Shown piece after piece: positions 32,806 to 36,228 of a stretch of DNA of 64,000 nt; position 1 is the stretch's first letter; each line of letters opens with the position of its first letter. The position numbers and the translations under genes are program-made. This DNA is from Thermococcus sp. 21S9 (lineage in GTDB: Archaea > Methanobacteriota_B > Thermococci > Thermococcales > Thermococcaceae): positions 186,001 through 250,000 of the forward strand of contig NZ_SNUS01000001.1 in NCBI RefSeq assembly GCF_012027635.1. Direction: 5' to 3'. A model generated the notes under the pieces. The model did not search any database. It worked only from the letters and a program-made list of their open reading frames with translations, and was not told where the DNA came from.

Positions 32806-33975
32806 TTAGAGAACCTCCCTCCGAAAGCGGGCGAGAACCCAGAAAACGACGTGAGGACGGCATTTCTCTTGGTGCTCAGCCCTCATGTTCTGTTCAGTGT
32901 GTGCGCCTATTTCCTTCACTATCGCCCCAAGCAAAACATGCCTACCGTTTACAACGTCCTCGGTTATCTGCCAGACCATAACTCCGCCGAGGCCCTTTGC
33001 GAGGGCGTAGCGGGTCTTCTCCGCGACGCTCTTCGGGTCGTCGTAGGTCAGGAAAGTTCCGTTGGGGCAGTACGCCCAGGGAACCTCTGCCCTTTCGCTC
33101 CAGAGGACGGAGCAGTTTTCAACGAGCTTCACAACTGAAGAGTAAGGAACCTCGTCGGTTGCGTTTTCAAAGCTCTGGTAGAGGCCGAAGTTCCTCGCGG
33201 GAACGCCGGTGAAGGCCCTCCCGTAGAAGGGAATCCCGAGGAGGAGCTTCTTCGCGGGAACAATCTTGAGGTACCAGCTAACCGTCTCGTTCACGCTTCC
33301 CGGCCCGACGCCGGGATAGTAGAGCGGGGCGTTGAAGTATGTGAAGTTCAGCCAGGGGCCGGCGTAATCGTAGGTCATCAAGCCGATGTAGTCCACGAAA
33401 CGGCTCACGTTGCTCCAGTCAACGCACGATGCTGTATCCGCGTCGGCCGGCGCGGTTACGGTTATGATGTAGCTATCCCCGAGTGTCTCCCTGAGCGTCT
33501 GGACGAGCGCCAGAAACTCCTCACCGCCGTTTGGAACCCAGCAGGGGAACTCCCAGTCGACGTCAACGCCGTCGAGCTCGTATTCCCTGAGGATTGCAAG
33601 AACGCTCTCCGCGAAGGCCCGCCTTCCTGCTTTTGAGGAGGCGAACTTCGAGAAGTTCTCGCTGAAGGTCCAGCCACCGACGCTCACGAGGAACCTAACG
33701 CTCGGGTGGGTTCTTTTGAGTTCCCTGAGCTTTTCAAGGTTAATCCCGTCCGCGTAGGGGTCGCCATAAACGACCGTTCCGTTCGCGAGGGGCCGGAGGA
33801 AGGCGTAGACGACGATGCTGACGTTATCGAGCGGAATCTCCGAAGGGCTGAAGCCGTCGTAGAGTGCCCAGGAGGGATAGTAAACGCTCACCGTGAACGA
33901 AGCCCCGGCTGGCACCGCCGTCAGCAGGAGCACCGCGAGCACCAGGGTTGAGGAAAGGACCGACCTCGACCGCAC
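32806..33975 (-). CDS. Secreted glycoside hydrolase family 18 (chitinase-like)
   Basis: 389 residues from GTG 33975 behind GGAGTGGTT. A signal peptide (about 1-25, AVPAGA) fits this start; the longer frame does not. The GH18 barrel shows LVSVGGW (97-102) and the catalytic DGVDVDWE (135-142, acid E142), plus MTYDYAGPW and MVWQITED. It probably cleaves beta-1,4-linked N-acetylglucosamine polymers. No chitin-binding domain is present. The last about 30 residues are basic and unlike the rest of the family, so the 3' end may be altered. Confidence 0.85.
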   Translation of the reverse strand: MRSRSVLSSTLVLAVLLLTAVPAGASFTVSVYYPSWALYDGFSPSEIPLDNVSIVVYAFLRPLANGTVVYGDPYADGINLEKLRELKRTHPSVRFLVSVGGWTFSENFSKFASSKAGRRAFAESVLAILREYELDGVDVDWEFPCWVPNGGEEFLALVQTLRETLGDSYIITVTAPADADTASCVDWSNVSRFVDYIGLMTYDYAGPWLNFTYFNAPLYYPGVGPGSVNETVSWYLKIVPAKKLLLGIPFYGRAFTGVPARNFGLYQSFENATDEVPYSSVVKLVENCSVLWSERAEVPWAYCPNGTFLTYDDPKSVAEKTRYALAKGLGGVMVWQITEDVVNGRHVLLGAIVKEIGAHTEQNMRAEHQEKCRPHVVFWVLARFRREVL

Positions 33976-34044
33976 GGGAACCACTCCTGAAGATACGGCA
34001 AGGAGGATAAAACGATGTCGCCCGAACCGCAACGCTTTTAAGAA

Positions 34045-34063
34045 ATATATCATTCGATATGTC
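34045..34063. promoter_or_regulatory. Operator candidate shared with padR (copy 1)
   Basis: ATATATCATTCGATATGTC contains the dyad ATATC-attc-GATAT. It lies just downstream of a CTTTTAAGAA TATA in the gap between the GH18 gene and the ferredoxin gene. Its reverse complement matches the site in front of padR at 34521-34539 in nearly every position. Confidence 0.65.
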
Positions 34064-34101
34064 GAAACAGGACATGTCTGAAAACTTAATAGGTGTTGGA
34101 C

Positions 34102-34506
34102 ATGGGAGCGGAGGAAGTGCCGGACTGGAAGGAGTACTACGAGAGAATGAAAGAAACCGCCCCGCTCGTGATACACTACCCCATCTGCGGTGGAGGGGAG
34201 GAATGCATCTTCGTGTGCCCGTTCAGCGATAAAATCTGGGAAGTCATCCCGATGAAGGTGAGCCTCTTCGGCTTCAAGTACAAGGTCAGGCTAAGGCCCT
34301 TCATGAGCCACCCCGAGAACTGCAGGAAGTGCTACATCTGCGTCCAGGCATGCCCGACCGGCGCTCTGAGGCCCGTTGAAAAACCTGTCAAGCATCCAAC
34401 CCTCGTCCTGCTGTACAACACCCTAAAACTGCCCTTCAAGAAGAAGTACGGAATTAAGTTCGTGTTCCGGAAGGAACATGCTGAGAAGTTCAGGAAGAAC
34501 AACTGA
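34102..34506 (+). CDS. 4Fe-4S ferredoxin-type protein
   Basis: 134 residues from ATG 34102 (GGTG 6 bases upstream). Two cysteine groups are seen: C29-x5-C35-x3-C39P and the canonical C74-xx-C77-xx-C80-xxx-C84P, implying one full [4Fe-4S] centre and a partial or atypical second one. The C-terminus is basic. It probably passes electrons to an oxidoreductase that is not encoded nearby. It sits under the same operator as padR, so it is a likely PadR target. Confidence 0.8.
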   Translation: MGAEEVPDWKEYYERMKETAPLVIHYPICGGGEECIFVCPFSDKIWEVIPMKVSLFGFKYKVRLRPFMSHPENCRKCYICVQACPTGALRPVEKPVKHPTLVLLYNTLKLPFKKKYGIKFVFRKEHAEKFRKNN

Positions 34507-34520
34507 AAGCTTTTAAACCA

Positions 34521-34539
34521 ACATGTCGAACGATATATC
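34521..34539. promoter_or_regulatory. Operator candidate of padR (copy 2)
   Basis: ACATGTCGAACGATATATC lies between TATA (CTTTTAAACC, 34510-34519) and the padR start at 34550, overlapping the expected transcription start. It is the reverse complement of the 34045-34063 site at about 16 of 19 positions, which suggests autorepression. Confidence 0.65.
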
Positions 34540-34549
34540 GGTGAATTAA

Positions 34550-35026
34550 ATGGAGAGGCCGAACTTCAGGGGTCAGCTCAAGCTCCTAATCCTCAAGATG
34601 CTCGAGGAGAAGCCGATGCACGGTTACGGGATAATGGCCGAGCTCGAGAAGCGCTATGGCGTCCCTCACCCCAGCCCGGGAACCGTTTATCCGATTCTGG
34701 CATCGCTCCGGAGGGCGGGGTTAATCGAGACCGTCGGCTCGGGCAAGAGGGAGAAGAAGCTTTACAGGACCACGGAGAAGGGAAGTGAATACCTGCGGGA
34801 GCACGAGGAGGAACTCCAGAACGTCCTGAGCCTCGCCGAGAAGTTCATAGAGTTCCGGAAGATTGGAGGTTTCGAGCTCGCCAGGGCGCTGAAGGACGTT
34901 TTCAACTCGGTTAACGAGCTGAGCGAGGAGCAGAAGAGGGCCCTCGCCGAGGAGTTTATGGACTTCACCAAGCGGGTCAGACTGATTCTCCTCGGGGAAA
35001 CAAAGGGTCAGGAGAAGAGCTCATAG
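34550..35026 (+). CDS. PadR family transcriptional regulator
   Basis: 158 residues. The winged helix (residues 5-85) has the PadR marks HGYGIMAEL, SPGTVYPILASLRRAGLIE and KKLYRTTEKG; a C-terminal helical dimerisation region follows. PadR proteins bind palindromic operators and release them on ligand binding. The two matching sites at 34045 and 34521 point to control of itself and of the ferredoxin (and perhaps GH18) gene. The 3' end overlaps pgk tail-to-tail by 19 bases. Confidence 0.88.
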   Translation: MERPNFRGQLKLLILKMLEEKPMHGYGIMAELEKRYGVPHPSPGTVYPILASLRRAGLIETVGSGKREKKLYRTTEKGSEYLREHEEELQNVLSLAEKFIEFRKIGGFELARALKDVFNSVNELSEEQKRALAEEFMDFTKRVRLILLGETKGQEKSS

Positions 35027-36228
35027 CTTATCCTGAAGGCTTCAAGAACCGGGAGCTTCTCCCCGGCAAAGAAGCTGAGCATGGCCCCTCCGCCGGTCGA
35101 GACGTGGCTTATGCCCGTTATGTTGTACTTGTAGATGCTCGCTATCGAGTGGCCACCGCCGACGACGCTGAAAGCAGGACTCTCCGCTATCGCCCTGAAG
35201 ACGCCGACAGTTCCGACAGCGAACTCTTCCCTCTCGAAGACACCCATCGGACCGTTGGCAACTATGATTTTCGCCTTCTGGAGAATCTCGCGGTATTTCT
35301 CCACCGTCCGGGAGCCGATGTCAAGGATTGGGTAGCGGTCGAAGAGCCACTTCTCGTCGCTCAGCAGGTCAACCTCAACGCGCTCACCATCGCGGTCAAC
35401 GGCGAAATCAACAGGGGTTCTCACATAGGGGTAGAACTCGTCGAGTATTCTCTCGGCCCAGTCAACAAGCTCAAGGAGGCCCTTCTTTTCCATGAACTCA
35501 AGGTTGGCATCGCCGAGGTTGAAGCCCTTCGCGAGGGTGAAAACGTGGCCGACGAGACCGCCTGTTAGGATTAGGTCTGCCTTGTCCTTCCTAAGGACGT
35601 TTTCGGCAACCCTGAGCGAGTCGTCAACCTTCGCACCGCCGAGCACGTAAACCCTCGGCCTTTCGTCGCTCTCGTAGGCCCTGCTAAGGGCGTCTATCTC
35701 CCTCTCCATAAGGTTGCCCATCACCATAGGCTTCAGCCGGGCGAAACCGACGAGCGAGGGCTGGCTCCTGTGTGAAGAAGCGAAGGCGTCGTTGACGACG
35801 TAGTCTACGAGCGGGGCGAGCTTTCTCACGAAGAAGGTCCTCTCGCACTCCTCGAGGGGCCGGTAGAAGACCTCCTCCGCAGAGAAGCGGAGGTTTTCGA
35901 GCATGAGAACTTCGCCAGGTTTCAGGGACTTTATTCTATCCCTCGCGAGCCTTCCAAAGATGTCCTCGACGTACTCAACCTCCTGCCCGAGAAGCTCGCC
36001 GAGGATTTGGGCGTGTTGCTCTGTCGTTATGTAGTCGCCCTTGTAGGGCCTGCTCTGGTGGGTTCCGATTACGACCCTGGCACCGTCCTCCACGAGGTGC
36101 TTCACCGTCGGTAGAACCGCCCTGAAGCGCGCGTCGCTCGTAATCCTGCCGTTCTCAACCGGAGAGTTCAAATCCACCCTCAGAAACACCGTTTTGCCGT
36201 GAAAGTTGAAGTCGGTGAGCCTGAACAT
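35008..36228 (-). CDS. pgk: Phosphoglycerate kinase
   Basis: 406 residues, normal archaeal length. FLRVDLNSPV, GTHQSRP, LENLRF and the C-terminal VVGGGHSI and STGGGAML blocks are conserved. It interconverts 1,3-bisphosphoglycerate and 3-phosphoglycerate; in Thermococcales glycolysis GAPOR bypasses this step, so PGK works mainly in gluconeogenesis. I see no TGM in its upstream region (36229-36300). Confidence 0.93.
   Translation of the reverse strand: MFRLTDFNFHGKTVFLRVDLNSPVENGRITSDARFRAVLPTVKHLVEDGARVVIGTHQSRPYKGDYITTEQHAQILGELLGQEVEYVEDIFGRLARDRIKSLKPGEVLMLENLRFSAEEVFYRPLEECERTFFVRKLAPLVDYVVNDAFASSHRSQPSLVGFARLKPMVMGNLMEREIDALSRAYESDERPRVYVLGGAKVDDSLRVAENVLRKDKADLILTGGLVGHVFTLAKGFNLGDANLEFMEKKGLLELVDWAERILDEFYPYVRTPVDFAVDRDGERVEVDLLSDEKWLFDRYPILDIGSRTVEKYREILQKAKIIVANGPMGVFEREEFAVGTVGVFRAIAESPAFSVVGGGHSIASIYKYNITGISHVSTGGGAMLSFFAGEKLPVLEAFRISYELFS

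Follow-up and report, generated by a model that had tools for sequence, protein, structure and literature searches.

A Conserved Palindrome as Predicted Operator of a PadR-Type Drug-Efflux Regulon in Thermococcaceae

In the window, i.e., the whole stretch of 64,000 nucleotides of Thermococcus sp. 21S9 DNA analyzed here (G000:C1:186001–250000), two matching sequences beside a padR gene appear, judging from their position and conservation, to be genuine operators of a PadR repressor that is conserved across the Thermococcaceae. Very probably, a PadR dimer binds this palindrome and represses its own gene, a 4Fe-4S gene, the gene of a DHA2/EmrB-type exporter and, in most relatives, the DrrA/DrrB genes; release from the DNA by a ligand is proposed. 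PadR binding, repression and the inducer are what we infer from operator conservation, site position, sequence-based regulon membership, gene order and the predicted fold of the protein. The theme of the predicted regulon is drug efflux rather than polymer use, because a third site lies at the DHA2-type exporter and the relatives possess a padR–DrrA–DrrB operon.

Two Predicted Operator Copies in the Window

The relevant features, with the basis of each assignment in brackets, are as follows.

32806–33978, minus strand: GH18 glycosidase with signal peptide, a divergent neighbor and probably no target (PF00704, E 3.2e-75)
34035–34042, plus strand: TATA box CTTTTAAG of the 4Fe-4S gene (sequence; aligned across 6 promoters)
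34045–34062, plus strand: predicted operator ATATATCATTCGATATGT of the 4Fe-4S gene (shuffle test; kept at 6/6 stand-alone orthologues)
34072–34078, plus strand: extra half-site ACATGTC of 4Fe-4S promoters, putative function (ACAT core at the same spacing in 6 stand-alone promoters)
34102–34506, plus strand: small ferredoxin-like 4Fe-4S protein of 134 aa with 7 Cys, a PadR target by prediction (Fer4 domains; cysteine positions)
34510–34517, plus strand: TATA box CTTTTAAA of padR (sequence; T/A-rich box at that position in padR promoters)
34521–34538, plus strand: predicted autoregulatory operator ACATGTCGAACGATATAT of padR (palindrome in the same place at 57/57 Thermococcus and 20/20 other-genus loci)
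34540–34544, plus strand: putative ribosome-binding site GGTGA of padR, adjoining the operator (sequence)
34550–35026, plus strand: padR, winged-helix PadR-family regulator, 158 aa (PF03551; AlphaFold model; PadR/LmrR folds; orthologues)

The genes at the locus are, in order, an nth-like endonuclease III (−), a CDC48_2/DUF6849-type protein (−), GH18 (−), 4Fe-4S (+), padR (+) and phosphoglycerate kinase (−). The last of these (window 35008–36228) is convergent with padR, whose final 19 bases it overlaps. As the first-pass annotation of this DNA had described, site 1, ATATATCATTCGATATGTC (34045–34063, +), sits in the intergenic stretch that separates the divergently oriented 4Fe-4S (ferredoxin) and GH18 genes; site 2, ATATATCGTTCGACATGTT (minus strand, 34538–34520), lies directly 5′ of padR. 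The annotation had also paired these two 19-mers and placed both just downstream of TATA boxes, and both statements hold. The sites are identical at 16/19 positions, or at 16/18 over the palindrome after a one-base shift of the second 19-mer, each being a copy of the 18-bp palindrome ATATATCG-NN-CGATATAT, and the TATA boxes CTTTTAAG and CTTTTAAA end 2–3 bp 5′ of their respective sites. A search of the window at ≤3 mismatches returned sites 1 and 2 as the sole matches, and 100 dinucleotide shuffles returned 0.

Conservation of the Predicted padR Operator

At 57/57 Thermococcus loci, the orthologous padR gene has the palindrome 3′ of its TATA box and 5′ of its start codon, beginning 28–31 nt from the latter; the palindrome is placed likewise at 20/20 sampled loci of five other genera, including Pyrococcus-type genomes. 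Conservation at orthologous loci, on which the first-pass annotation had beforehand made its proposal depend, is therefore complete in this sample. Seven palindrome positions (A1, T4, T6, C7, A13, A15 and T18) are invariant over the 57 Thermococcus loci, and the 100-bp upstream regions of all 57 reach an operator score of at least 13/16, a value attained by 0.18% of dinucleotide-shuffled regions. At one other-genus locus, L250, the best-scoring 18-mer is displaced by 12 bp, with a second copy overlapping. The PadR orthologue itself is present in 88 of the 94 family genomes and in all 74 genomes with completeness ≥90% and contamination ≤5%. The annotation's proposal of one PadR protein with an operator on its own gene, as in LmrR-type autoregulation, is hence supported by the sequence at 77/77 orthologous loci.

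Exporter Genes as Predicted Targets

Genome scans were conducted as pattern searches, with the reversed pattern as a control. In the window's own genome, the scan at ≤3 mismatches, a search that had been suggested with the original proposal, gave the two window sites, a third site (G000:C1:90306, 130 kb away and outside the window) and one match in a coding region (C1:324595, 3 mismatches), which was dropped as chance; the reversed control gave one match per strand. The third site, missed in the first-pass annotation, follows the TATA box and precedes the start codon of the gene encoding a 497-aa DHA2/EmrB-type exporter (TIGR00711, E 2e-50, under the strict family cut-off). Among 24 complete or near-complete genomes scanned, the padR site was found in 24/24 and the exporter site in 19/19 exporter-bearing genomes, with no such site in the five that have no orthologue (G011, G014, G017, G029 and G058). 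In 20 further genomes, scanned at a stricter setting, the matches were confined to padR, the 4Fe-4S gene and the exporter, with 0 for the reversed pattern. The few 2-mismatch matches in other genomes are comparable in number to those of the reversed control. A weaker 2-mismatch site, ACATATCGGGCGAAATTTC, occurs in identical form in L150 (G005:C1:1308897) and at G028:C6:28544; in G005 it is located 5′ of a gene for a secreted, subtilisin-type protease-like protein, and it may represent either a minor additional target or chance.

The operator is present at 29/29 exporter promoters with upstream sequence and in 8 further genomes, i.e., 37/37 in Thermococcus, and also in two genomes of other genera, which brings the total to 39/39 promoters. 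Exporter paralogues at 41–43% identity have no site in their promoters. Two exporter orthologues carry in-frame stops (G012:C1:885698–887176 and G060:C1:595083–596498; one TGA and three TAA) and may be decaying; the operator is still there.

A second exporter, likewise missed in the first-pass annotation, appears in the relatives, where an ATPase and a permease (a DrrA/DrrB drug-exporter pair) are encoded 3′ of padR at 40/57 Thermococcus and 20/20 other-genus loci. A representative pair scored 410 against an NCBIfam cut-off of 312 for DrrA and 383 against 223 for DrrB. Next to padR, no such pair exists in the window genome or in either of its two closest relatives, and since a search for DrrA homologues in the own genome gave paralogues only (best 49%), the pair is taken as absent from it. 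Control of a drug exporter, another feature of LmrR-type regulation, is predicted from both the DHA2 promoters and the padR–DrrAB operon of the relatives.

The 4Fe-4S Gene

The 4Fe-4S gene is carried by 25 of the 61 genus genomes. It lies directly 3′ of padR, in the padR operon, in 19/25, while the stand-alone gene has its own operator in 6/6 (G000, G010, G013, G055, G021 and G007). Because these two arrangements account for all 25, the gene is, on this genomic evidence, a genuine member of the predicted regulon, and the operator on an Fe–S gene proposed in the first-pass annotation is upheld. All six stand-alone promoters contain, in addition, an extra ACAT half-site after the palindrome at a fixed spacing, which is seen in none of the padR and exporter promoters read and may admit a second PadR dimer.

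A speculative and rather unlikely thought is that the efflux module employs the 4Fe-4S protein as a functional component, which might, for instance, reduce a redox-active toxin before export or help to sense the toxin, with the promoter half-site giving separate tuning. If true, such a role would mean that this archaeal drug-efflux regulon includes a redox partner of its own.

The Regulator

The protein encoded by padR is a PadR-family transcriptional regulator. Its PadR domain (PF03551) scores 69.9 bits against a cut-off of 27 (E 1.9e-19), and a sequence search of the PDB placed PadR-like entries at the top. The AlphaFold model (pLDDT 88) contains a winged helix and then three helices (86–104, 107–123 and 126–147); as modeled, these C-terminal helices after the wing are as expected for the dimerization part of the family. 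PadR/LmrR structures were the top Foldseek matches (probability 1.00), and the solved fold neighbors include LmrR with daunomycin, Hoechst dye and riboflavin. A second PadR ORF in L048 was rejected as an ORF-calling artefact. Within the 18-bp palindrome, the operator has the form ATRT-N6-AYAT, which is of the PadR half-site type with a spacer of 6 and not the strict ATGT-N8-ACAT. For PadR operators, ATGT-N8(-10)-ACAT is common, not universal, and degenerate variants are also known (PMC3506622).

The palindrome was assigned to PadR by genomic association, which leaves a small chance that another regulator binds it and controls padR, the exporters and the Fe–S gene. Exporters can indeed have other regulators: in Pyrococcus, a different ABC exporter operon is under TFB-RF1 control (PMC5937170). 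However, the TFB-RF1 motif, TCTG-N5-CAGA, differs from the palindrome and sits 5′ of BRE/TATA (PMC5937170). Moreover, the padR promoter is the one place that always has the site, the usual mark of autoregulation, and the site resembles PadR operators of the ATGT/ACAT type.

A PadR protein of P. furiosus, PF1476, is reported to be a target of the sugar regulator TrmBL1 (PMC4706686). PF1476 and the window PadR both belong to the PadR family in Thermococcales, and TrmBL1 control of the window padR was considered because of PF1476. The TrmBL1 motif is TATCAC-N5-GTGATA; no site of this kind was seen by eye 5′ of the window padR, and this candidate was set aside.

The GH18 Neighbor

The first-pass annotation had also placed a chitinase under possible PadR control and derived from it a new link between sugar polymers and redox control. 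In this scenario, the operator at 34045 would additionally control the divergent GH18 gene, and PadR would couple chitin or polymer use to redox. In its favor, a divergent GH18 gene stands beside padR or the Fe–S gene at 8/57 Thermococcus loci and at two Pyrococcus-type loci, and the two TATA boxes in the window are within about 30 bp of each other, with CTTTTAAG readable in both directions. The window GH18 gene has its own TATA-like element, GGATAAAA (+ strand, 34005–34012), 32 bp beyond the operator. Although this neighborhood recurs, the GH18 proteins differ among the loci. In the nearest relatives, G010 and G013, the divergent GH18 is a different protein (about 1,250 aa) with a TATA box some 140–145 bp off, whereas the operator stays at the Fe–S promoter. 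When GH18 promoters were placed by reading ORF starts, several adjacent GH18 genes were found to have their own TATA box and AT-rich element well away from the operator, and in the genome scans, GH18 genes located elsewhere (G006, G010, G012, G013 and G056) were without a site. Furthermore, at the cut-off applied, 49 of the 61 genus genomes lack a GH18 match, yet nearly all of them keep the PadR system. Since the GH18 promoters are variable and distant and the scans put no site on GH18 genes remote from padR, neither chitinase control nor the polymer–redox link finds support, and we regard both as quite improbable; an incidental influence of the operator on the window GH18 gene, or co-regulation confined to the window, is conceivable, though no observation speaks for it.

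The AT-rich element of several GH18 promoters (e.g., GATTACAAAAAC) has similar versions at GH18 genes that are not beside padR. An GATTACAAAAA-like element of this kind lies 5′ of the TATA box in the GH18 promoters of L229, L230, L224 and L227, also where there is no adjacent padR. The shared element may be bound by a distinct regulator of chitinase genes.

Proposed Mechanism

In the favored model of PadR repression, a PadR dimer would occupy the 18-bp palindrome, which covers the expected transcription start in the interval from TATA box to start codon, and would thereby block the loading of RNA polymerase. PadR would in this way repress its own gene, establishing negative feedback, as well as the 4Fe-4S gene and, via G000:C1:90306, the DHA2/EmrB-type exporter gene; in most relatives, the DrrA/DrrB ABC exporter shares the padR promoter and would be repressed along with padR. 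Binding of a metabolite or toxic compound to PadR would then free the DNA and switch on the pumps. When archaeal regulators bind 3′ of the promoter elements, they keep RNA polymerase from being recruited (PMC5937170); a palindrome that follows the TATA box, precedes the start codon and adjoins the ribosome-binding site is consistent with such a block.

The direction of regulation is not given by sequence alone, and PadR might instead bind and activate the exporters. This is very improbable, since the site is located 3′ of the TATA box in all three target classes and archaeal activators usually bind 5′ of BRE/TATA (PMC5937170). Finally, the AT-richness of the site and the adjoining GGTG ribosome-binding site could suggest a chance match or a core-promoter or ribosome-binding element, but this can practically be dismissed for a palindromic site that never arose in the shuffles, is confined to three gene families over six genera and is missing at the exporter paralogues.

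Comparison with Known Systems

The closest parallel is the LmrR–LmrCD system of Lactococcus lactis, in which LmrR, a PadR-family repressor, binds both its own promoter and the promoter of the multidrug ABC exporter LmrCD (PMC4534193). The two systems share the PadR winged-helix fold and, as predicted here, an operator in the regulator's own promoter, autoregulation and the linkage to an ABC drug exporter. Unlike LmrR, the regulator described herein would act in an archaeal TATA/TFB promoter context, with one near-perfect palindrome over the start region (spacer 6 versus ATGT-N8-10-ACAT), has a longer C-terminal helical part (158 aa versus chains of about 116–126 aa), and its predicted regulon includes a second exporter of the DHA2 type and a 4Fe-4S protein. 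While drug-bound structures are available for LmrR, a drug response of the archaeal PadR is suggested by analogy. The DrrAB daunorubicin-resistance ABC exporter (TIGR01188/TIGR01247) is a second point of comparison, as the representative pair 3′ of padR exceeds both cut-offs; in contrast to that setting, the pair is absent next to padR in the window genome, and in the relatives it is assigned by family score. Within the Thermococcales, the TFB-RF1 regulon of Pyrococcus furiosus also involves a regulator of a putative multidrug ABC exporter, but TFB-RF1 is an activator with another palindrome, 5′ of BRE (PMC5937170).

In 2016, the function of PadR in Archaea was described as unknown (PMC4706686), and no published account of the regulon predicted here was found in the searchable literature. 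The archaeal regulon would work like LmrR-type control but differ from it in operator spacer, in having a DHA2 exporter and in its Fe–S member.

Outlook

This analysis assigns an operator to the PadR orthologue of nearly all sequenced Thermococcaceae, together with a regulon that is small and sharply delimited. Control of drug or toxin efflux is thereby predicted in hyperthermophiles, and Thermococcus, being genetically tractable, allows a direct test of the prediction. Should the repressor prove responsive to small molecules, it would also serve as a useful inducible switch in these organisms.
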